The notes beneath the pieces are model-generated. The model did no database searches, was not told where the DNA came from, and saw nothing but the letters and a program-made list of their open reading frames with translations. Shown here in pieces: positions 1 through 40,179 of a DNA stretch of 50,921 nt. The DNA is from Flavobacteriales bacterium (GTDB lineage Bacteria > Bacteroidota > Bacteroidia > Flavobacteriales > Flavobacteriaceae). The translations under genes were made by a program, and so were the position numbers. The stretch spans positions 1-50,921 of the forward strand of contig JAMOVT010000029.1 of assembly GCA_027061855.1 (NCBI GenBank), in the 5' to 3' direction. The number at the start of each line of letters is the position of its first letter. The first letter of the stretch is position 1.

Positions 1-416
1 TCAATCACTTTACCGAAAACCGTATGTTTCCCGTCAAGCCAAGGGGTGGCTTCATGTGTAATAAAAAACTGACTCCCGTTAGTGCCCGGACCTGCATTTG
101 CCATAGATAAAATTCCGGCAGAATCGTGTTTTAAATCCGGGTGAAATTCATCGTCAAATTTATAACCGGGATTTCCGGCTCCCGTGCCCGTAGGATCCCC
201 TCCTTGAATCATAAAATTATCTATCACACGATGAAAGGTTAATCCGTCATAGTATTTTTTGTCTTTATATTTTTCGTCAACCTCAGGATGGTTTCCTTCG
301 GCCAATGCTACAAAATTAGCCACCGTTCCGGGTGTTTTCTCCATTTCCAATTTGGCAAGTATATCGCCTTTATTGGTTTTTATTTTGGCATATAAGCCTT
401 TATCCAATTCTTTCAT
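1..416 (-). CDS. Cyclophilin-type peptidyl-prolyl cis-trans isomerase (partial, 3' end outside window)
   Basis: Catalyses cis-trans isomerisation of peptidyl-proline bonds during protein folding. The visible 138 residues read as the cyclophilin core: [15 protein letters not shown] near residue 60 holds the catalytic Arg (FHRV) and the QGGDP signature, followed by [10 protein letters not shown] and the [10 protein letters not shown] block. No signal peptide is seen, so it is probably cytosolic. The ATG at 416-414 follows a TAAATTTG -7 box at 440-433. The gene runs off the left edge, so the C-terminus is not seen. It lies downstream of the DUF1931 gene but has its own promoter after a terminator. 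The family call is secure. Confidence 0.95.
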
Positions 417-500: not shown

Positions 501-950
501 TTATAATAAAGTTTCAAAAATTGCTTTTGCTCTTTCCCAATGAGAAGTTTGAGGATTTTTCAATTTAGGTTCCAAAGTTTTAAAGGTTTTGATCAATGCG
601 ACAAGAATTCCTCCTGCTATATTAGGTAATTCTTGTTCTACGTCTTCTCCTATTTCATATTTCAAAGGAGGCATATGAGTGATCGCTTCCAAAATTCCTG
701 CTAAATCCAATTCTTCATTTAACTCTCTGAATTCTTGAATTTGTTTTTCCAATCCTTCTGTGATAGGAAGATCTGTATACCATAATACATCACGTCCGTT
801 TAAAGAGGCATTCTTCATTCCAACTACTAATAAGCGATAAATCGCTTCATTTGTAAAATCATAGATTCTTTTTACATCCGATTTGTCGATATCCAAGCTT
901 CCGGCTTTTCTGAAAAACGACTCAAATTTTGATACTCCGATTACTGACAT
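501..950 (-). CDS. DUF1931 family single-chain (pseudodimeric) bacterial histone-fold protein
   Basis: The 149-residue protein matches the DUF1931 family from memory of the Aquifex and Thermus members with solved structures, which fold as two histone folds in one chain. Shared landmarks are the N-terminal KFESFFRKAGSLDIDKSDVKR, the central NGRDVLWYTDLPI strip (comparable to the loop before the last helix of a histone fold), a second helical half from about residue 80, and the C-terminal NPQTSHWERAKAIFETLL. Length equals that of the family. There is no signal peptide. The protein is not rich in lysine, and net charge looks acidic, so DNA binding cannot be assumed. It stands alone as a unit with its own promoter and terminator. 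Family assignment is strong; cellular role is unknown. Confidence 0.9.
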   Translation of the reverse strand: MSVIGVSKFESFFRKAGSLDIDKSDVKRIYDFTNEAIYRLLVVGMKNASLNGRDVLWYTDLPITEGLEKQIQEFRELNEELDLAGILEAITHMPPLKYEIGEDVEQELPNIAGGILVALIKTFKTLEPKLKNPQTSHWERAKAIFETLL

Positions 951-983: not shown

Positions 984-1016
984 CAAAGATACGACAAACA
1001 ACAGGCCTTTGTCAAG
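984..1016 (-). promoter_or_regulatory. Promoter of the DUF1931 histone-fold gene
   Basis: On the minus strand TATCTTTG (991-984) is a perfect TAnnTTTG -7 box. A TTG core at 1015-1013 lies 21 bases upstream, the spacing expected for the -33 element. This is one of the best promoters in the window and suggests strong housekeeping-type transcription. Confidence 0.7.
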
Positions 1017-13495: not shown

Positions 13496-15622
13496 ATGAA
13501 AAAACATATATGGATTTTGGCTGCCGTTTTATTTGTGGGAGCCTGCAATCAAAAACAAGATGAGAGTATGAAAAAAACATCTATTGCTGATACCAATCCG
13601 TTGCTACAAGAATGGAATACGCCTTATGGCACCCCGCCTTTCGATCAAATCAAAAGCGAAGATTATTTACCCGCCCTGGAATATGCTTTGCAAGAACACC
13701 GGGAGGAAATAAATGCCATTGCAAATAATAAAGAAAAACCTACTTTCCAAAACACACTGGAAGCAATGGAAAAAAGCGGCAAACAGCTTAACAAAGTAAC
13801 AGGAGTGTTTTTTGCTGTAAAAGCAGCAAATACAGACAGTATTTTGGATGAAACCTCAAAAAAGTTTATGCCGCAATTAGCTGCCCATCAAGATGCTATT
13901 AATATGAACAAAGCACTGTTTGACAGAATTAATGCCATTTATAAGCAAAAAGATGAATTAAATCTTACTCCCGAACAACAAAAACTTTTGGAAAATAAAT
14001 ATAAAAATTTTGTGCGTTCCGGTATCAATTTATCGCCGGATAAACAAGATAGATTAAAAGAGATCAATCAAAGATTAGCTACTTTGCAAGAGAAATTCAA
14101 TAATAATCTTTTGGCTGAAACCAATAATTTTGAATTGTATATAACCGATGAAAAAGATTTGGGAGATATGCCCGAAAATGTCAAACAAGCGGCACGGGAA
14201 GAAGCTGAAAAGAGAGGACATAAAACCGGATGGTCTTTCACTTTACAACGCCCCAGCATTTATCCTTTTCTCGATTATTCGCCTAATAGAGAACTAAGAG
14301 AAAAAATATATCAAGGCTATATAAATCGCGGCAATAATAATAATGAATATGACAACAAAAAAGTATTAGAGGAAATGGTAAGCCTTAGAGCCGAAAAAGC
14401 GCATCTGTTGGGGTATAATAATTTCTCTGAATATGTATTGGAAGAAAATATGGCCAAAAAACCTGAGAATGTATATGATTTTATGAATAAAATCTGGCCG
14501 AAAACTCTCGACAAAGCCAAAGAAGACAGAAATATGTTTGCCCAGATGATGAAAAAAGAAGGAATAAAAGGCGATTTCAGAGGAAGTGATTGGAGATATT
14601 ATGTCAGAAAAGTCCGCGAACAAAAATATAATTTTGACGAAAATGCCACTAAACCCTATTTTGAAGTAAATGCCGTAAGAGACGGTGCCTTTTCTTTGGC
14701 ACATAAACTTTTCGGATTAAACTTTAAGGAACTCAAAAACATTCCTACATGGCATGAAGACCAGCAAGTATTTGAAGTAACCGATGACACCGGAAAACAT
14801 GTCGGGATAATATATATGGACTTTTTTGCTCGTCCCAGTAAAAAAGGAGGAGCTTGGATGAATGAAATCCGCATGCAATCCAATATAGATGGAAATTACG
14901 TAACTCCTATTGTGACCAACAATTTTAATTTTCCCGCTCCTACCAAAGACAGCCCTTCTCTTTTAAGTTTCTCGCAAGCGCAAACTGTTTTTCATGAATT
15001 CGGTCATGGATTACACGGCCTTTTATCTAATGTCACTTATCCCTCTCTTTCTGGAACAAATGTACCACGAGATTTTGTAGAATTTCCTTCACAAGTAATG
15101 GAAAACTGGATGAGTGAACCGGAAATGCTTAAAGAATATGCCAAACATTATCAAACGGGAGAAGTAATTCCTGCCGAAATGATCGATAAGATGAACAAAG
15201 CAAATGCTTTTAATGAAGGATTCAGAGGGGGAGAATATACGGCTGCCGCTTATCTTGATATGGATTGGCATACGGTAAATGATACATTGCCAAAAAATAC
15301 TTTGGAATTTGAAAAACAATCGATGAACAAAATCGGTTTAATCAAAGAAATCGCTCCCCGGTACAGAAGTACATATTTTGCTCATATTTTCGGTGGAGGT
15401 TATGCATCCGGCTATTATAGTTATTTATGGTCTGAAGTACTTGATGCCGACGCCTTCCAAGCCTTTAAGGAAACCGGAGATATATTTAATCCGGAATTGG
15501 CCAAACGCTATAAAAAAATGTTGAGCATGGGAGGATCCAAAGACGGAATGGAATTATACAAAGAATTCAGAGGAAAAGAGCCCTCTATTGATGCTCTTTT
15601 AGAAAGAAAAGGATTGAAATAA
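13496..15622 (+). CDS. dcp: M3 family metallopeptidase, peptidyl-dipeptidase Dcp-like, lipoprotein
   Basis: Zinc peptidase that trims oligopeptides. 708 residues. A lipoprotein signal (IWILAAVLFVGAC, Cys17) places it at the cell envelope. The long helical N-terminal part (about 40-400) is followed by the catalytic site VFHEFGHGLHGLLS near residue 500, where HEFGH supplies two zinc His and the catalytic Glu; the third zinc ligand is the Glu of DFVEFPSQVMENW about 28 residues later. ILGGGYASGYYSYLWSEVLDADAF-like C-terminal text (HIFGGGYASGYYSYLWS) is the family substrate loop. A second M3 gene without signal lies at 25213-27252. Own promoter and terminator. Confidence 0.92.
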   Translation: MKKHIWILAAVLFVGACNQKQDESMKKTSIADTNPLLQEWNTPYGTPPFDQIKSEDYLPALEYALQEHREEINAIANNKEKPTFQNTLEAMEKSGKQLNKVTGVFFAVKAANTDSILDETSKKFMPQLAAHQDAINMNKALFDRINAIYKQKDELNLTPEQQKLLENKYKNFVRSGINLSPDKQDRLKEINQRLATLQEKFNNNLLAETNNFELYITDEKDLGDMPENVKQAAREEAEKRGHKTGWSFTLQRPSIYPFLDYSPNRELREKIYQGYINRGNNNNEYDNKKVLEEMVSLRAEKAHLLGYNNFSEYVLEENMAKKPENVYDFMNKIWPKTLDKAKEDRNMFAQMMKKEGIKGDFRGSDWRYYVRKVREQKYNFDENATKPYFEVNAVRDGAFSLAHKLFGLNFKELKNIPTWHEDQQVFEVTDDTGKHVGIIYMDFFARPSKKGGAWMNEIRMQSNIDGNYVTPIVTNNFNFPAPTKDSPSLLSFSQAQTVFHEFGHGLHGLLSNVTYPSLSGTNVPRDFVEFPSQVMENWMSEPEMLKEYAKHYQTGEVIPAEMIDKMNKANAFNEGFRGGEYTAAAYLDMDWHTVNDTLPKNTLEFEKQSMNKIGLIKEIAPRYRSTYFAHIFGGGYASGYYSYLWSEVLDADAFQAFKETGDIFNPELAKRYKKMLSMGGSKDGMELYKEFRGKEPSIDALLERKGLK

Positions 15623-16008: not shown

Positions 16009-16461
16009 ATGAAAACAAAAAACCTTCTAATTATTCTATTGTCTTTATTGACAATAAGCCTCTCTTCTTGTAAAAAAGAAGATGATGAGCCCCTATCCAA
16101 GTCTGAATTACTAACCAAAGAAATATGGAATTGGGATAAAATGGAAAGCTATGAGAACAACATTCTGGTAGATAGTGAAGACAAAACCGGCTATAAGATG
16201 GAGTTTAATGATGACCATAGTCTTATAATTTACAATCCTGACGGCAGTATTGACGAGAATCTCATCTGGGAAATTAATATGGATGAAACAAATTTATTTA
16301 TTTCAACAAGGATCACCGAAGAAGCTATGGTTTTCGATATTGACAAATTGACTGAAAATATATTTATTTTCTCTGCCACTTGGCAAGACGGAGGCGGAAA
16401 GATAAAAGCCTTTGAAGATGTAGTCAATTCCGAAAAAATCGTATTTTATTTAAGTAGATAA
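16009..16461 (+). CDS. Lipocalin-like surface lipoprotein, array member A1
   Basis: 150 residues with a lipoprotein signal (LLSLLTISLSSC, Cys20) followed by K-K-E-D-D-E, which fits the Lys/acidic export signal that sends lipoproteins to the cell surface in Bacteroidota. The mature part (KSELLTKEIWNWDKMESY ... KTGYKMEFNDDHSLIIYNPDGS ... LIWEINMDETNLFIS) has the strand pattern and W-x-W-x-K start of lipocalin-like domains, ending in a basic aromatic tail (FYLSR). It resembles member A2 (16949-17398) more than its direct neighbour. Function unknown. Starts after a leader shared by the array. Confidence 0.75.
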   Translation: MKTKNLLIILLSLLTISLSSCKKEDDEPLSKSELLTKEIWNWDKMESYENNILVDSEDKTGYKMEFNDDHSLIIYNPDGSIDENLIWEINMDETNLFISTRITEEAMVFDIDKLTENIFIFSATWQDGGGKIKAFEDVVNSEKIVFYLSR

Positions 16462-16483
16462 TCTAAACCAAAAATCTAAAATT

Positions 16484-16915
16484 ATGAAAACCAAATTAAT
16501 AAGTTTAATCATCTTAGGCTTTTTAACTATAAGCCTGACATCTTGTAAGAAAGAAGATAATCTGGAAACTAAAAAAGAATTACTCTCCAAAAAAAAATGG
16601 GAACTCTATAAATGGGAAGAGTATAATATCAATGATGAATTTATAGAATCTGAACCAGTTGAAGATGTTTATTTTTGGTTCAAAACCGATTATACGCTAG
16701 TTATAATGGATGGTGATGATCAAATATATATTGAAGGAAAATGGGATATAAACAAAGAAGAAAACATGCTTTATTTTATAGATTCACAAGATAATGAAGC
16801 TGAAGTATATATAATAATTAAATTAAATAAAAATGAATTGGTCATTAAAGAAAATATTTCATATCCGTCAAAAAATAAAATTTCTACCTATGAAATTCTT
16901 TATTTCAAAAGATAA
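16484..16915 (+). CDS. Lipocalin-like surface lipoprotein, array member B1
   Basis: 143 residues, lipobox LTISLTSC with Cys20, then K-K-E-D-N. The mature protein reads KKELLSKKKWELYKWEEYNINDEF, FWFKTDYTLVIMDGDD, GKWDINKEENMLYFI, and ends STYEILYFKR. These blocks match B2 (17423-17857) closely in order and spacing, including the late ISYPSKNKISTYE / IYYPVKRKAPTYD segment that A-type members lack. 22 bases from A1, so probably one transcript. Confidence 0.75.
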   Translation: MKTKLISLIILGFLTISLTSCKKEDNLETKKELLSKKKWELYKWEEYNINDEFIESEPVEDVYFWFKTDYTLVIMDGDDQIYIEGKWDINKEENMLYFIDSQDNEAEVYIIIKLNKNELVIKENISYPSKNKISTYEILYFKR

Positions 16916-16948
16916 TTAATGTAAAACAATCTAAAACCTATAATAATT

Positions 16949-17398
16949 ATGAAAACAAAAACCCTATTAAGTCTTTTGTTATTGTCATTATTTACAGTCA
17001 CTTTTACTTCCTGTGATAAAGACGATGATGAAGTTACTAAAACAGAATTACTGACCAAATCCATATGGAATTGGGAAAAAGTGGAAGTATATTCCGGTGA
17101 TGTATTATTGGATACTGAATATAAAACCGGCTATACCATGAAATTCGATATAGATCATACTGCCGTTTTATATGAACCCGATGGAAATATTGAAGAGAAA
17201 TTTCAATGGGATTTAAACTCGGATGAAACCAAACTCTCATTAACGATAAAAAGTAATAGAGTAATATTTTTTGATTTAATTCTCCTCACGAACAAAGAAT
17301 TAGTGTTTTCGTTTAGTTTAACAGAGCCTCCCGGAATTAGCAAATTTCAAAAAATGAGACCTGATATTGACAAAAAAGTATTTTATTTTAAAAGATAG
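16949..17398 (+). CDS. Lipocalin-like surface lipoprotein, array member A2
   Basis: 149 residues, lipobox FTVTFTSC with Cys20, then D-K-D-D-D-E. The mature part follows A1: TKSIWNWEKVEVYSGDVLLD, KTGYTMKFDIDHTAVLYEPDGN, QWDLNSDETKLSL, and a C-terminal KKVFYFKR. Preceded by CTAAAACCTATAATAATT, a leader like that of A1. 33 bases after B1. Confidence 0.75.
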   Translation: MKTKTLLSLLLLSLFTVTFTSCDKDDDEVTKTELLTKSIWNWEKVEVYSGDVLLDTEYKTGYTMKFDIDHTAVLYEPDGNIEEKFQWDLNSDETKLSLTIKSNRVIFFDLILLTNKELVFSFSLTEPPGISKFQKMRPDIDKKVFYFKR

Positions 17399-17422
17399 AT
17401 CCCTTATTAAAAACCAAGCATT

Positions 17423-17857
17423 ATGAAAACAAAAATATTAGTATTCTTTACAATAACTTTTCTTGTCTTTAATTTTTCTTCTTGCAAAAAAGAAGATAAA
17501 GAACCCACAAAAACAGACTTATTAACAAAAAAAGAATGGCAATTCTATAAAAGTGAAACCTATGATTTAGACAATCAATTTTTGGGCAACGAATTGGTAG
17601 ATCCCCTCTATTTTGATTTTAAAACAGATCACCAACTCATTATTACTGACCCCCAAGATCCGGAAGATGCTGAAATAATGGAATGGGATTTTAATAATGA
17701 TAAAACAAAAATTTATTTTATTTATCCTGATAATAATATTGGAGAATCCTATATCATTGAAAAATTGGAAGATCAAGAAATGATTTTAAAAGAGGATATC
17801 TATTACCCGGTAAAAAGAAAAGCCCCTACGTATGACAAGCTATATTTCAAACGCTAA
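17423..17857 (+). CDS. Lipocalin-like surface lipoprotein, array member B2
   Basis: 144 residues, lipobox LVFNFSSC with Cys20, then K-K-E-D-K-E. The mature part follows B1: TKKEWQFYKSETYDLDNQFLG, YFDFKTDHQLIITDPQD, MEWDFNNDKTKIYFIY, IYYPVKRKAPTYDKLYFKR. Last gene of the array, followed by a strong terminator. The body is somewhat longer and more acidic in the middle (DPQDPEDAEIME) than B1. Confidence 0.75.
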   Translation: MKTKILVFFTITFLVFNFSSCKKEDKEPTKTDLLTKKEWQFYKSETYDLDNQFLGNELVDPLYFDFKTDHQLIITDPQDPEDAEIMEWDFNNDKTKIYFIYPDNNIGESYIIEKLEDQEMILKEDIYYPVKRKAPTYDKLYFKR

Positions 17858-24697: not shown

Positions 24698-25216
24698 ATG
24701 AAAACAAAAAGTAGTTTTTTGGTATTTCTTATTTCCGGATTAATCATCGGAGTAATTTTATTAACGATTTTCCTTCCTCCGTTTCAAATAGATAATACAC
24801 AAACATTTGCAAAACTACCTTTTTATAATGCACTCTTAAACGGATTATCTTTTCTCTCTTTGCTTTTAGCCTATTATTTCGTTAAAAAAGGAAAAATCAA
24901 AGAGCATATTTATTTTATTTTCACTGCTTTATTTTTCACCACATTATTTTTGTTCTCTTACCTCCTTTATCATTTCACCAATAAACCCACTCCATTTGGC
25001 GGAGGAGGTGCAATCAAAGTCTTCTATTTGATTCTACTCGGTACGCATATCATCCTGGCTGCCATGATGCTTCCTCTTATATTATTTACTTTAAAAGAAG
25101 CATTTGAAAAAAATTATACAAAACATAAAAAAATAGCCAGATGGACCTTGCCCATCTGGCTATACGTAAGTTTAACCGGTGTGCTTGTTTACTTATTGAA
25201 CCGCCCTTATTATTAA
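24698..25216 (+). CDS. DUF420 protein, CtaM-like oxidase maturation factor
   Basis: 172 residues with five hydrophobic segments and the DUF420 pattern: LPFYNALLNGLSFLSLLLAYYFVKKGKIKEHIYFIFTALFFTTLFLFSYLLYHF, then HIILAAMMLPLILFTLKEAF and KHKKIARWTLPIWLYVSLTGVLVYLL. Conserved polar residues Asn and His in these helices are present. In Bacillus the DUF420 protein CtaM is needed to mature cytochrome a oxidases, and the gene here diverges from the oxidase cluster, which supports the same role. Ends overlapping the convergent M3 peptidase stop by four bases. Confidence 0.88.
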   Translation: MKTKSSFLVFLISGLIIGVILLTIFLPPFQIDNTQTFAKLPFYNALLNGLSFLSLLLAYYFVKKGKIKEHIYFIFTALFFTTLFLFSYLLYHFTNKPTPFGGGGAIKVFYLILLGTHIILAAMMLPLILFTLKEAFEKNYTKHKKIARWTLPIWLYVSLTGVLVYLLNRPYY

Positions 25217-27252
25217 TCTTTCTTTTCCAAACCCGCCCGCTTTAACAAGGCTTGTAGACCGGGTTCTCTTCCTCTGAATTTTATATATAAATCCATGGGA
25301 TGCTCCGCTCCTCCTTTTTGCATTAATTCTTTAAAACCGTCTGCTGTTTCTTTATCAAATATGCCTTTTTCTTGAAATAAAGAAAAAGCATCTGCATCCA
25401 ATACTTCCGCCCATTTATAAGAATAATAACCGGCAGAATATCCCCCCGGAAAAATATGGCTGAAAGCAACACTCATATTATTTTCAGGATATACCGGAAG
25501 CAAACGTGTTTTTTCAAAAGAGGATATTTCATATTCTCCTACATTTTTCACTTTATCCGGTTCAAAATGATAATGCCAATCCATATCCAAAAAACCGAAA
25601 CTCAATTGGCGATTGGTAGCATAGCCTTCCATAAACTGCATGGATTTTTTAATTTTTTCAATCATCTCCACCGGAATAACTTCCCCGGTTTTATAATGAT
25701 GAGCAAAGAGTTCAAGCGCTTCCTTTTCATAGGCCCAATTTTCCATAATTTGAGAAGGTAATTCTACAAAATCCCAATATACATTAGTGCCTGAAAGAGA
25801 GGGGTAGTGTGTATCCGCCAATATCCCGTGAAGCGCATGACCGAATTCATGAAAAAAGGTGGTTACCTCTTGAAAATTTAATAAGGCGGGAAGAGTTTTT
25901 GACGGTTTTGAGAAATTTGTCACGATGGAAATATGAGGACGTGAATTTTCTCCGTCTTTCTTCCATTGAGATTTATAAGAAGTCATCCATGCGCCGGGTC
26001 GTTTTCCTTTTCGCGGGAAAAAGTCCAAATATAATAAAGCCAAAAACTCTCCTTTTTCATCCATCACTTTATATACTTCAACCTCAGAATGATATTTTTG
26101 TACTCCTGTTTCTTTTTCAAAAGATAATCCGTAGAGTCGATTTACTATTTCAAAAATCCCGTTTTTCACCTTTTCCAGTTCAAAATAAGGACGTAATTGC
26201 TCTTCTTCCAGATCTAATTCCTGCTGTTTTAACTTCTCCATATAATAAGATAAATCCCATTTTTCCAATGAATCGATTCCATCCTTCTTGGCCAAATTTT
26301 CCAATCGTTTAACATCTTGCTTAGCAGCCGGATAAGCAACTTTATATAAACTGTCGAGAAATTCCATTACTTTTCCGGGAGATTTAGCCATTCTTTCCTC
26401 CAATACAAAGTCGGCATGTGTATCATAACCCAATAACCGGGCTCTTTCCTTTCTTAAACGAGCAATTTGTAATACATTTTCACGATTATCAAATTTATTA
26501 TTCTTATAAGCTCTGGAACCAAATGCCAAGGCCATTTTTTTTCTCAACTCCCTGTTTTCCGCATATTTCATAAAAGGAATATAGGAAGGAGCTTGAAGAG
26601 TAAAAATCCATTTTTGTTTTCCATCGACAATTTGGGCCGCTTCCTTAATCAACGATTCGGGCAAGCCTGCCAGATCTTCTTCTTTATCGATTACCAATTG
26701 AAATGCATTGGTTTCAGCAAGAACATTTTTACTGAAATCTAATTTTAACCGTGTCAACTGTTGGTCAATCTCTCTCAATTTCTTTTTACCTTCTTCGTTT
26801 AGTAATGCTCCATTTCGGGTAAAACTTTTATAGGTTTTATCAAGCAGCCTTTTTTGTTCTTCCGTTAATTGATCTTTATCTGTATGTTCATATACATATT
26901 TAATTTTTTCAAACAAGGCTTTATTGAGTTTGATATCATTCCCCAATTCGGTAAGCATCGGCATAACTTCTTCTGCCACTTTTTGAAGTTCATCATTTGT
27001 TTCAGCCGAATTCAAATTGGAAAGCAAGCCCGACAAACGCCCCAATTCCATACCCGAAAATTCCAATGCTTCAATTGTATTGGTAAAATCCGGCATAGAG
27101 GGATTGACTATTATTTCATCGATTTCCCGCTTGGTTTTTGCTATATATTTTTCTATGGCCGGTTTAAAATGAGCGGGCTTGATTTCTTCAAAAGGAATAC
27201 TTTCAAAAGGAGTTGTAAAAAGATCGTTTAATAAAGGATTTTCATATTTCAT
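25213..27252 (-). CDS. M3 family metallopeptidase (oligopeptidase), cytosolic
   Basis: 679 residues without a signal peptide, so probably a cytosolic oligopeptidase that degrades short peptides. TFFHEFGHALHGILAD near residue 470 has the zinc-binding HEFGH, and DFVELPSQIMENW supplies the third zinc ligand. IFPGGYSAGYYSYKWAEVLDADAF is the C-terminal substrate loop. Sequence order is the same as in the lipoprotein M3 at 13496-15622, so the two are paralogues with different location. Three bases after the NifX-like gene, hence one operon. Confidence 0.93.
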   Translation of the reverse strand: MKYENPLLNDLFTTPFESIPFEEIKPAHFKPAIEKYIAKTKREIDEIIVNPSMPDFTNTIEALEFSGMELGRLSGLLSNLNSAETNDELQKVAEEVMPMLTELGNDIKLNKALFEKIKYVYEHTDKDQLTEEQKRLLDKTYKSFTRNGALLNEEGKKKLREIDQQLTRLKLDFSKNVLAETNAFQLVIDKEEDLAGLPESLIKEAAQIVDGKQKWIFTLQAPSYIPFMKYAENRELRKKMALAFGSRAYKNNKFDNRENVLQIARLRKERARLLGYDTHADFVLEERMAKSPGKVMEFLDSLYKVAYPAAKQDVKRLENLAKKDGIDSLEKWDLSYYMEKLKQQELDLEEEQLRPYFELEKVKNGIFEIVNRLYGLSFEKETGVQKYHSEVEVYKVMDEKGEFLALLYLDFFPRKGKRPGAWMTSYKSQWKKDGENSRPHISIVTNFSKPSKTLPALLNFQEVTTFFHEFGHALHGILADTHYPSLSGTNVYWDFVELPSQIMENWAYEKEALELFAHHYKTGEVIPVEMIEKIKKSMQFMEGYATNRQLSFGFLDMDWHYHFEPDKVKNVGEYEISSFEKTRLLPVYPENNMSVAFSHIFPGGYSAGYYSYKWAEVLDADAFSLFQEKGIFDKETADGFKELMQKGGAEHPMDLYIKFRGREPGLQALLKRAGLEKKD

Positions 27253-38040: not shown

Positions 38041-38412
38041 ATGAGTTTATATTTATTTATATTATTAATAGCAATTGTATCACTTTTATTGATACTTATG
38101 ATTATGGTACAAAACCCCAAGGGAGGCGGATTGGATTCTTCTTTTGGCGGAGGCGGAGGCCAAATGTTCGGGGGAGTACAGGAAACAACAAACTTTCTTG
38201 ATAAAGCCACATGGTATTTATTCGCACTTTTAGTGATTTTGATACTTATTTCCAATGCTGTACTTATCAAAGACAAGGAAGATGCTTCATCTGCAGCTAA
38301 ACAAGCAATGGAGCAACATGTAAAAGATCAAAAAGACATTCCCACCAAGAATCCTATTTTGAATACCAATCCTGCACAACAACAAGAAAAAGTGCCCGCA
38401 AAAGAGAATTAA
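38041..38412 (+). CDS. secG: Preprotein translocase subunit SecG
   Basis: Membrane subunit that helps the SecYEG channel. 123 residues with two hydrophobic segments. [44 protein letters not shown] between them is the diagnostic SecG loop. The C-terminal tail is hydrophilic and rich in K, Q and P. Confidence 0.95.
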
Positions 38413-38438
38413 ATTTCCATTTTACAAAATGCATATAA

Positions 38439-38471
38439 GGGTGTCAATCTGCCAGATTGACACCCTTTTTT
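38439..38471 (+). terminator. Dyad terminator between secG and groL, possibly also an operator
   Basis: GGGTGTCAATCTG (38439-38451) pairs perfectly with CAGATTGACACCC (38453-38465), followed by six T (38466-38471), a classic intrinsic terminator. Because the 13-base arms form a clean dyad 30 bases before a sigma-54-like promoter, it could also be the binding site of an activator. Both are possible at once. Confidence 0.8.
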
Positions 38472-38493
38472 GTGTGAAAAAAAAATCAACCCA

Positions 38494-38510
38494 ATGGCAC
38501 AATTTATGTA
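38494..38510 (+). promoter_or_regulatory. Sigma-54-like promoter before groL
   Basis: TGGCAC (38495-38500), then five bases, then ATGTA (38506-38510). The GG and the second G lie 12 bases apart, as in the -24/-12 consensus TGGCAC-N5-TTGCA; the C of GC is T here. The start codon of groL is 35 bases downstream. Confidence 0.45.
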
Positions 38511-38523
38511 TAAAATGGACTGA

Positions 38524-40179
<1,656 letters not shown>

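Follow-up and report, generated by a model that had tools for sequence, protein, structure and literature searches.

The accessible part of PMC12701072 names DUF1931 (PF09123) as one of two principal families of bacterial histone-fold proteins. The closest described relatives of the protein reported here, TTHA1479 of Thermus thermophilus (PDB 1WWI) and AQ328 of Aquifex aeolicus (1R4V), share its family, its length and its predicted architecture, a pseudodimer of two histone folds in one chain, but differ from it in host lineage. The histone fold is also common to DUF1931 and the alpha3 histones of archaea and bacteria (HMfB, HBb, HLp); the latter form dimers or tetramers and have DNA-binding residues (PMC12701072, accessible part), whereas DUF1931 proteins are a fused pair and acidic. 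The accessible parts of three papers describe the family as having no conserved DNA-binding residues (PMC11390915, PMC12701072, PMC13140390), and others contrast a high-pI doublet with the DUF1931 doublets (PMC10919886, in part) or use the DUF1931 Pfam model for searching (PMC10627809 and PMC8775648, both in part). The Tn-seq study PMC13140390 takes the DUF1931 gene of Thermus thermophilus HB27, TTC1115, as an example when it describes its less-permissive proteins of unknown function. In the accessible text of a review of double-histone-fold proteins their role is called unclear (PMC13088155). Gene clusters of other histone families have been examined, the neighbours of DUF1931 not being described in the part of that paper available (PMC11390915), and our search of the accessible main texts of papers found none linking DUF1931 with chaperone genes.

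Two further systems are relevant to gene neighbourhood. The tLST, as far as the accessible part of PMC8290217 describes it, has gene kinds in common with islands around several DUF1931 relatives, namely Hsp20, Clp ATPase, YfdX, HdeD, thioredoxin and the KefB type; the window's own locus differs in having no such island. The main text of PMC8290217 contains 0 occurrences of both 'DUF' and 'histone'. Dual-family prolyl isomerases are cyclophilin–FKBP fusions, and both domains are present in the gene downstream of DUF1931 in a close relative (L001), where the fusion is a neighbour of DUF1931 and not part of it.

Here we describe a DUF1931 gene in a flavobacterial window, by which we mean the whole 50.9-kb stretch of DNA that was analysed, together with the genomic company kept by its relatives. 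The features of the locus are:

3–416, minus strand: cyclophilin part (N-terminal) of a fused cyclophilin–FKBP dual prolyl isomerase, truncated where the contig stops
446–473, minus strand: intrinsic terminator, CCAAAGCA-TTTCCT-TGCTTTGG plus a T run, separating DUF1931 from the isomerase gene
501–950, minus strand: DUF1931 (PF09123) protein, predicted double histone fold, 149 aa, stop codon included in the coordinates
984–1015, minus strand: Bacteroidota-type promoter, TTGAC-N19-TATCTTTG, a pattern present in 7/7 flavobacterial loci

The DUF1931 gene and its predicted fold

The ORF at 501–950 encodes a complete DUF1931 protein, containing both the central NGRDVLWYTDLPI strip and the NPQTSHWERAK end from which a sequence-only reading had recognised the family. 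A profile HMM search bears the assignment out: PF09123 is matched at 169.7 bits (E 5.1e-50) against a cut-off of 21.8, over positions 1–137 of the 138 in the profile and thus at full length, and as the sole Pfam match in the 149-aa protein, which is therefore stand-alone, with no other domain. The window gene is another member of an already known family.

At E ≤ 0.001, the only PDB sequence matches were 1WWI (E 4.2e-42) and 1R4V (E 2.2e-15). An AlphaFold2 model, based on an alignment (A1) of 23 sequences with the window included (23 of 25 rows aligned; L024 and L029, the latter with two stop codons, were left out), has a pLDDT of 90.6 and a pTM of 0.86. It places helices at residues 6–17, 23–50, 65–76, 83–91, 102–126 and 135–148, a predicted pattern of two helix triplets in succession that we read as two histone folds. 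Foldseek at E ≤ 0.001 returned 1WWI (TM 0.95, 46% identity) and 1R4V (TM 0.83) alone, followed by weaker matches to viral, eukaryotic and Methanopyrus histone pairs (Methanopyrus 1F1E: TM 0.61, E 0.002). The two fused histone folds expected from the sequence are thus upheld by the predicted structure, as is the expectation that charge would be unlike that of DNA-wrapping histones: the protein is acidic, with a pI of 5.0 and 18 K+R against 24 D+E, and pI ranges from 4.7 to 5.4 across nine members of the family.

Residues N51, R53, D54, P62, G66, P94, P109, G113, P128, K131, N132 and P133 are identical in 40/40 counted rows (40 of 42, the partial 1R4V row and the RHA1 row being omitted and many of the rows being near-duplicates). 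The invariant N51-x-R53-D54 sets an acidic residue directly beside a conserved arginine, where archaeal histones have lysine–threonine.

Distribution and descent

The gene had been suspected to be untypical of flavobacteria, and its rarity is confirmed: PF09123 was found in one of 296 sampled genomes of the order, namely the window's own, in two of three genomes of the genus and in seven of 395 genomes of the phylum (own genome included throughout). Elsewhere, with the seed genome counted, it was found in 5/80 genomes of the class of G300, 3/80 of the order of G616, 6/296 of the phylum of a Streptomyces genome and 2/198 of the phylum of a Desulfobulbaceae genome. A scan of a separate genome collection yielded 32 DUF1931 loci, seven of them in Bacteroidota MAGs at 77–95% identity; these seven may come from hydrothermal-vent studies, in which accession series of this kind occur, although their titles give no such origin. 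Among the loci, L018 and L030 belong to one genome, while L001, L034 and L104 are apparently one gene.

In a tree from which AQ328, RHA1 and one duplicate row were omitted, the window groups with six flavobacterial rows and L007 at a support of 100/100; the same group was supported at 88/92 in a first tree that included the two long rows (AQ328 and RHA1) and in which 10 of 34 inner branches are open. One clade of all Bacteroidota DUF1931 rows was rejected (p-AU 0.0055), so the gene probably entered the phylum more than once. When possible donors were considered, a clade with the f69 lineage was not rejected (p-AU 0.397), and one with rows presumed, as a guess, to be Rhodothermia was marginally rejected (p-AU 0.043). 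Judging from these sequence comparisons, the patchy distribution and the rejected Bacteroidota clade make lateral entry of DUF1931 likely.

Inside the flavobacterial group the picture differs. There DUF1931 identity is 87–95% (six loci) against 88–91% for GroEL (four of their genomes), and between L007 and the window the values are 77% and 72%, respectively; the match between the two proteins argues for ordinary vertical descent within the group since entry. The lateral transfer thought possible from the sequence is therefore supported by the patchiness and the rejected clade, but within the window's own group the gene behaves as one inherited vertically. Base composition gives no signal of recent transfer (GC 0.333 in DUF1931, 0.345 in the window). 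A viral origin is unsupported, as the phage and viral collections contained no DUF1931 relative.

Transcription signals and neighbours in the flavobacterial group

Upstream of DUF1931, the pattern TTGAC-N18/19-TAnnTTTG is present in all seven flavobacterial loci (the window and L001–L006), where it starts 56–65 bases 5' of the start codon, and a hairpin with a T run lies 22–40 bases 3' of the gene in the same seven; neither was found at L007. On both strands of the 50.9-kb window the promoter pattern has a single occurrence, the DUF1931 promoter itself. The promoter and the terminator noticed in the window at the outset have thus both been kept throughout the seven loci, and DUF1931 is probably its own transcription unit. 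Five different kinds of gene lie immediately upstream across the seven loci, so the conserved promoter can be assigned to DUF1931. Heat-shock operators of the HAIR and CIRCE types were found in none of 22 DUF1931 loci at up to two mismatches, in a search that had no positive control.

The cyclophilin–FKBP gene directly downstream of DUF1931 is the only neighbour found in 7/7 flavobacterial loci, and the terminator separates the two. In L001 the full-length relative has its cyclophilin domain at residues 10–154 and FKBP_C at 223–312; the window fragment is 88% identical to it over residues 2–138, from which we infer that the window's copy, too, would have an FKBP part. The isomerase is a general gene, common without DUF1931: it is present in 38 of 40 genomes of the order that were searched and in 14 of 16 DUF1931-less genomes scanned for both, and among 30 loci fetched around it, DUF1931 lay within about 1.5 kb in L104 only, which appears to be L001's genome. 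Beyond the isomerase, the six loci that show the next position have three kinds of gene there. Since the isomerase is general and its neighbours have been reshuffled, DUF1931 seems to have arrived in front of a folding enzyme that was already resident, and to have kept this position as the genes around it changed. The genus genome without DUF1931 (G296) has one isomerase match, apparently the other copy, which may reflect an assembly gap or joint loss.

The fetched flanks of L001–L007 contain no match to a chaperone seed family (no YfdX seed was used), and the window's only such match is GroEL, about 37 kb from DUF1931; tLST-like stress islands were found beside relatives elsewhere only. The chaperonin gene directly follows a SecG gene (38041–40179), and a single cyanobacterial seed detected no GroES relative in the window. 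Four tandem genes of 143–150 aa at 16009–17857 on the plus strand possibly form a small duplicated family; an Hsp20 identity considered for these roughly 145-aa genes was rejected, one having a weak Lipocalin_4 match and three no Pfam match. Two M3 family peptidases (13496–15622 and 25213–27252) lie about 10 kb apart.

DUF1931 on plasmids

In tblastn searches the window protein identified DUF1931 on 21 plasmid records; the Desulfobulbaceae protein gave 22, the added record being from Azospirillum. All matches were counted, including incomplete or split ones (Aquicella, Azospirillum) and those of two Rhodococcus records covering residues 1–133 only. In 20 of the 22 records a dnaK gene lies within 10 kb of DUF1931, at 4.6–8.2 kb (in CP118330 the distance runs across the record start, and in CP118319 that start truncates the DnaK match). 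DnaK at E ≤ 1e-60 occurs on 182 of 72,556 plasmid records but anywhere on the record in 21 of these 22 (Fisher p about 1e-54, uncorrected for relatedness); most of the records are from Nocardiaceae and they are therefore far from independent. The Rhodococcus jostii RHA1 plasmid is an exception, with DnaK 27.6 kb from DUF1931 and no core chaperone near. On the Aquicella plasmid, for which no DnaK was found among the best 60 of the 182 rows, two hsp20 genes stand immediately before an annotated DUF1931 fragment, and a second DUF1931 match lies beyond a Tn3-family transposase gene.

Neighbourhoods were inspected in 13 of the 22 records, two of them (RHA1 and Azospirillum) without annotation. The Nocardiaceae order is general stress – dnaK – grpE – J domain – cbpM – clpB – trxA – UBP zinc finger – FAD oxidoreductase – DUF1931, all on one strand with DUF1931 last; it is complete in two records, runs from dnaK on in one and is present in parts in four, where some genes are unannotated or lie outside the inspected stretch. 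On a Trichormus plasmid groES, groEL, hsp20, thioredoxin and dnaK are beside DUF1931, and on a Nostoc plasmid groEL, hsp20 and thioredoxin are near it, with dnaK 8.2 kb away. The Azospirillum plasmid has HdeD, GrpE, GroES, GroEL, DnaK and ClpB near its weak DUF1931 match; in this Azospirillum argentinense island (L134:319–8319) the six frames follow one another in that order, and the DUF1931-like match, also split, comes after them.

Chromosomal loci and controls

Using the chaperone sequences annotated on DUF1931 plasmids as seeds, we searched six-frame translations of 20 chromosomal loci (L059–L078) and of 20 control regions (L084–L103) from 12 of the same genomes. A relative of DnaK, GrpE, DnaJ, Clp ATPase or Hsp20 was found nearby in 12/20 DUF1931 loci versus 1/20 controls, an Hsp20 at L085 (Fisher p 0.0002); the test loci include four of genus g128 (family f28), three of f69 and four of the Streptomyces group, and some test regions, at 12–20 kb, are shorter than the controls (19.9 kb). 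In the remaining eight loci (L061, L063, L064, L070–L072, L077 and L078) the fetched region contained no core chaperone; two of them, L063 and L071, have DUF1931 matches that are split between frames. When loci were grouped by lineage (our own grouping, plasmids included), a core chaperone was present in 9/17 lineages against 1/20 controls (p 0.0015), or in 8/16 with G704 merged with Nocardiaceae (p 0.003). The lineages with a core chaperone are Streptomycetaceae, Nocardiaceae plasmids, G704, Nostocaceae, G665/G695, f28, f40, Aquicella and Azospirillum; those without are G843, G711, Desulfobulbaceae, G1132, f69, Tectomicrobia, the flavobacterial group and L007. Within the Streptomyces group, 17 of 23 loci have a core chaperone in the fetched flank (at most 5 kb) and six have none there.

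A Pfam scan made without preselection covered 138 proteins predicted within 5 kb of DUF1931 in 16 lineages, with gene calls that are rough (the J-domain gene of L062, for example, was missed). The best 25 of the 132 families found include Clp ATPase domains, HSP20 and Na/H exchanger (4 each), SDH (ClpP-like) protease (3), and HSP70, DUF308/HdeD, DUF5335 and DUF2267 (2 each), along with families not related to stress: sigma-54 activator domain (3), aldehyde dehydrogenase, AMP-binding enzyme and luciferase-like monooxygenase (2 each). Among the best 25 of 179 families in 132 control proteins there is no chaperone family, nor any of the Clp ATPase, HSP20, Na/H exchanger, SDH, HSP70 and HdeD families; universal stress protein leads with 3, and the Hsp20 of L085 ranks below the 25.

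Several arrangements stand out. Two genomes from the phylum of Streptomyces have the order Hsp20 – Clp ATPase – DUF1931 – SDH protease; in L059 the Clp ATPase and protease genes immediately flank DUF1931 on the same strand, and L060 has the same order. Five Bacteroidota genomes, from families f28 and f40, combine Hsp20, DUF1931 and SDH protease, and the f40 genome additionally has GrpE, ClpB, DnaJ and HdeD. YfdX – HdeD – DUF1931 lie on one strand in a Desulfobulbaceae genome (L072), and an exchanger that we label KefB-type (Na/H exchanger plus TrkA domains) is directly upstream in three f69 genomes. DUF1931 and the SDH-type ClpP-like serine protease form a second conserved pair, the protease lying directly 3' of DUF1931 in two phyla (L059:9992–10831 and L066:10251–11084); the L059 protease is PF01972 by Pfam, and the L066 protein is the search seed of the same group.

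Possible roles of DUF1931

DUF1931 is thus associated with chaperone genes in several phyla, and the presence of heat-shock and folding genes beside its relatives suggests that it aids stress survival rather than DNA packaging. We propose, with a probability of roughly 0.55, that DUF1931 uses its histone folds to act in stress tolerance or protein quality control, as an accessory protein; its molecular action, as adaptor or holdase, is the least certain part of this proposal. The protein itself would bind unfolded clients or the chaperone machinery (Hsp20, Hsp70/Hsp40, Hsp100 or a ClpP-like protease) and contribute to the tolerance of heat or oxidative damage to proteins. TAF-type histone folds in eukaryotes are protein–protein interaction scaffolds, and the DUF1931 pseudodimer may be one as well, with the invariant C-terminal KNP motif (K131-N132-P133) as a candidate contact for clients or partners. 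In the window's lineage DUF1931 stands, probably as its own transcription unit, directly before the fused prolyl isomerase. A nucleic-acid partner is not supported as the leading guess; the genomic context points to protein folding and stress tolerance. A broader version of the proposal, to which we give slightly less than even odds, is that DUF1931 pseudodimers constitute a proteostasis class in which the histone fold has been redirected from DNA to the binding of chaperones or clients. Plasmids and islands with chaperone genes would have carried this class from phylum to phylum, and it would have been kept beside the dual prolyl isomerase in a flavobacterial lineage.

Several observations weigh against a proteostasis role. 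In the window's clade the link is the prolyl isomerase alone, a gene that is common without DUF1931 and lies behind a terminator. There are loci without chaperones (8/20 chromosomal), no HAIR or CIRCE operator in the 22 loci, and several split or incomplete copies (L063, L071, Aquicella and Azospirillum); moreover, mobile islands gather unrelated passengers.

It is unlikely, in our estimation, that DUF1931 is instead a stress-induced protector of the nucleoid or of RNA, which would bind nucleic acid through a non-canonical face and shield it during heat or oxidative stress. Such a protein would explain DUF1931 on stress islands, the chaperone context fits it too, and the histone fold is predicted to be intact; against it are the acidity of all nine members for which pI was calculated, the absence of DNA-binding residues from the family in the accessible parts of PMC11390915 and PMC12701072, and the acidic residue that N51-x-R53-D54 sets beside its conserved arginine. 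We consider it just as improbable that DUF1931 rides on mobile stress islands as a passenger with another job, in redox or ion homeostasis or in ribosome hibernation. Neighbours that include KefB-type exchangers, thioredoxin, FAD-dependent oxidoreductases and an HPF/RaiA gene are in keeping with such a job, as are the copies with no chaperone neighbour, but Hsp20, Clp ATPase and the ClpP-like protease are seen repeatedly across separate lineages, and the Clp ATPase – DUF1931 – SDH protease order of L059 and L060 is more than loose island membership. That DUF1931 is simply an architectural histone, wrapping or bending DNA across the genome of this flavobacterium, agrees with the predicted fold but is very improbable given the low pI, the DNA-binding residues missing in published analyses (PMC11390915 and PMC12701072, in their accessible parts) and the rarity of the gene among relatives (1/296 of the order).

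Implications

What is new here is the genomic company of DUF1931, a recurrent chaperone neighbourhood. To our knowledge this neighbourhood provides the first concrete, testable hypothesis for a role of DUF1931. If the proteostasis role is true, part of the 'bacterial histones' would serve protein quality control and not chromatin, and transmissible stress islands would have one more component. Context in this way gives an orphan family of histone-fold proteins a role that can be tested.
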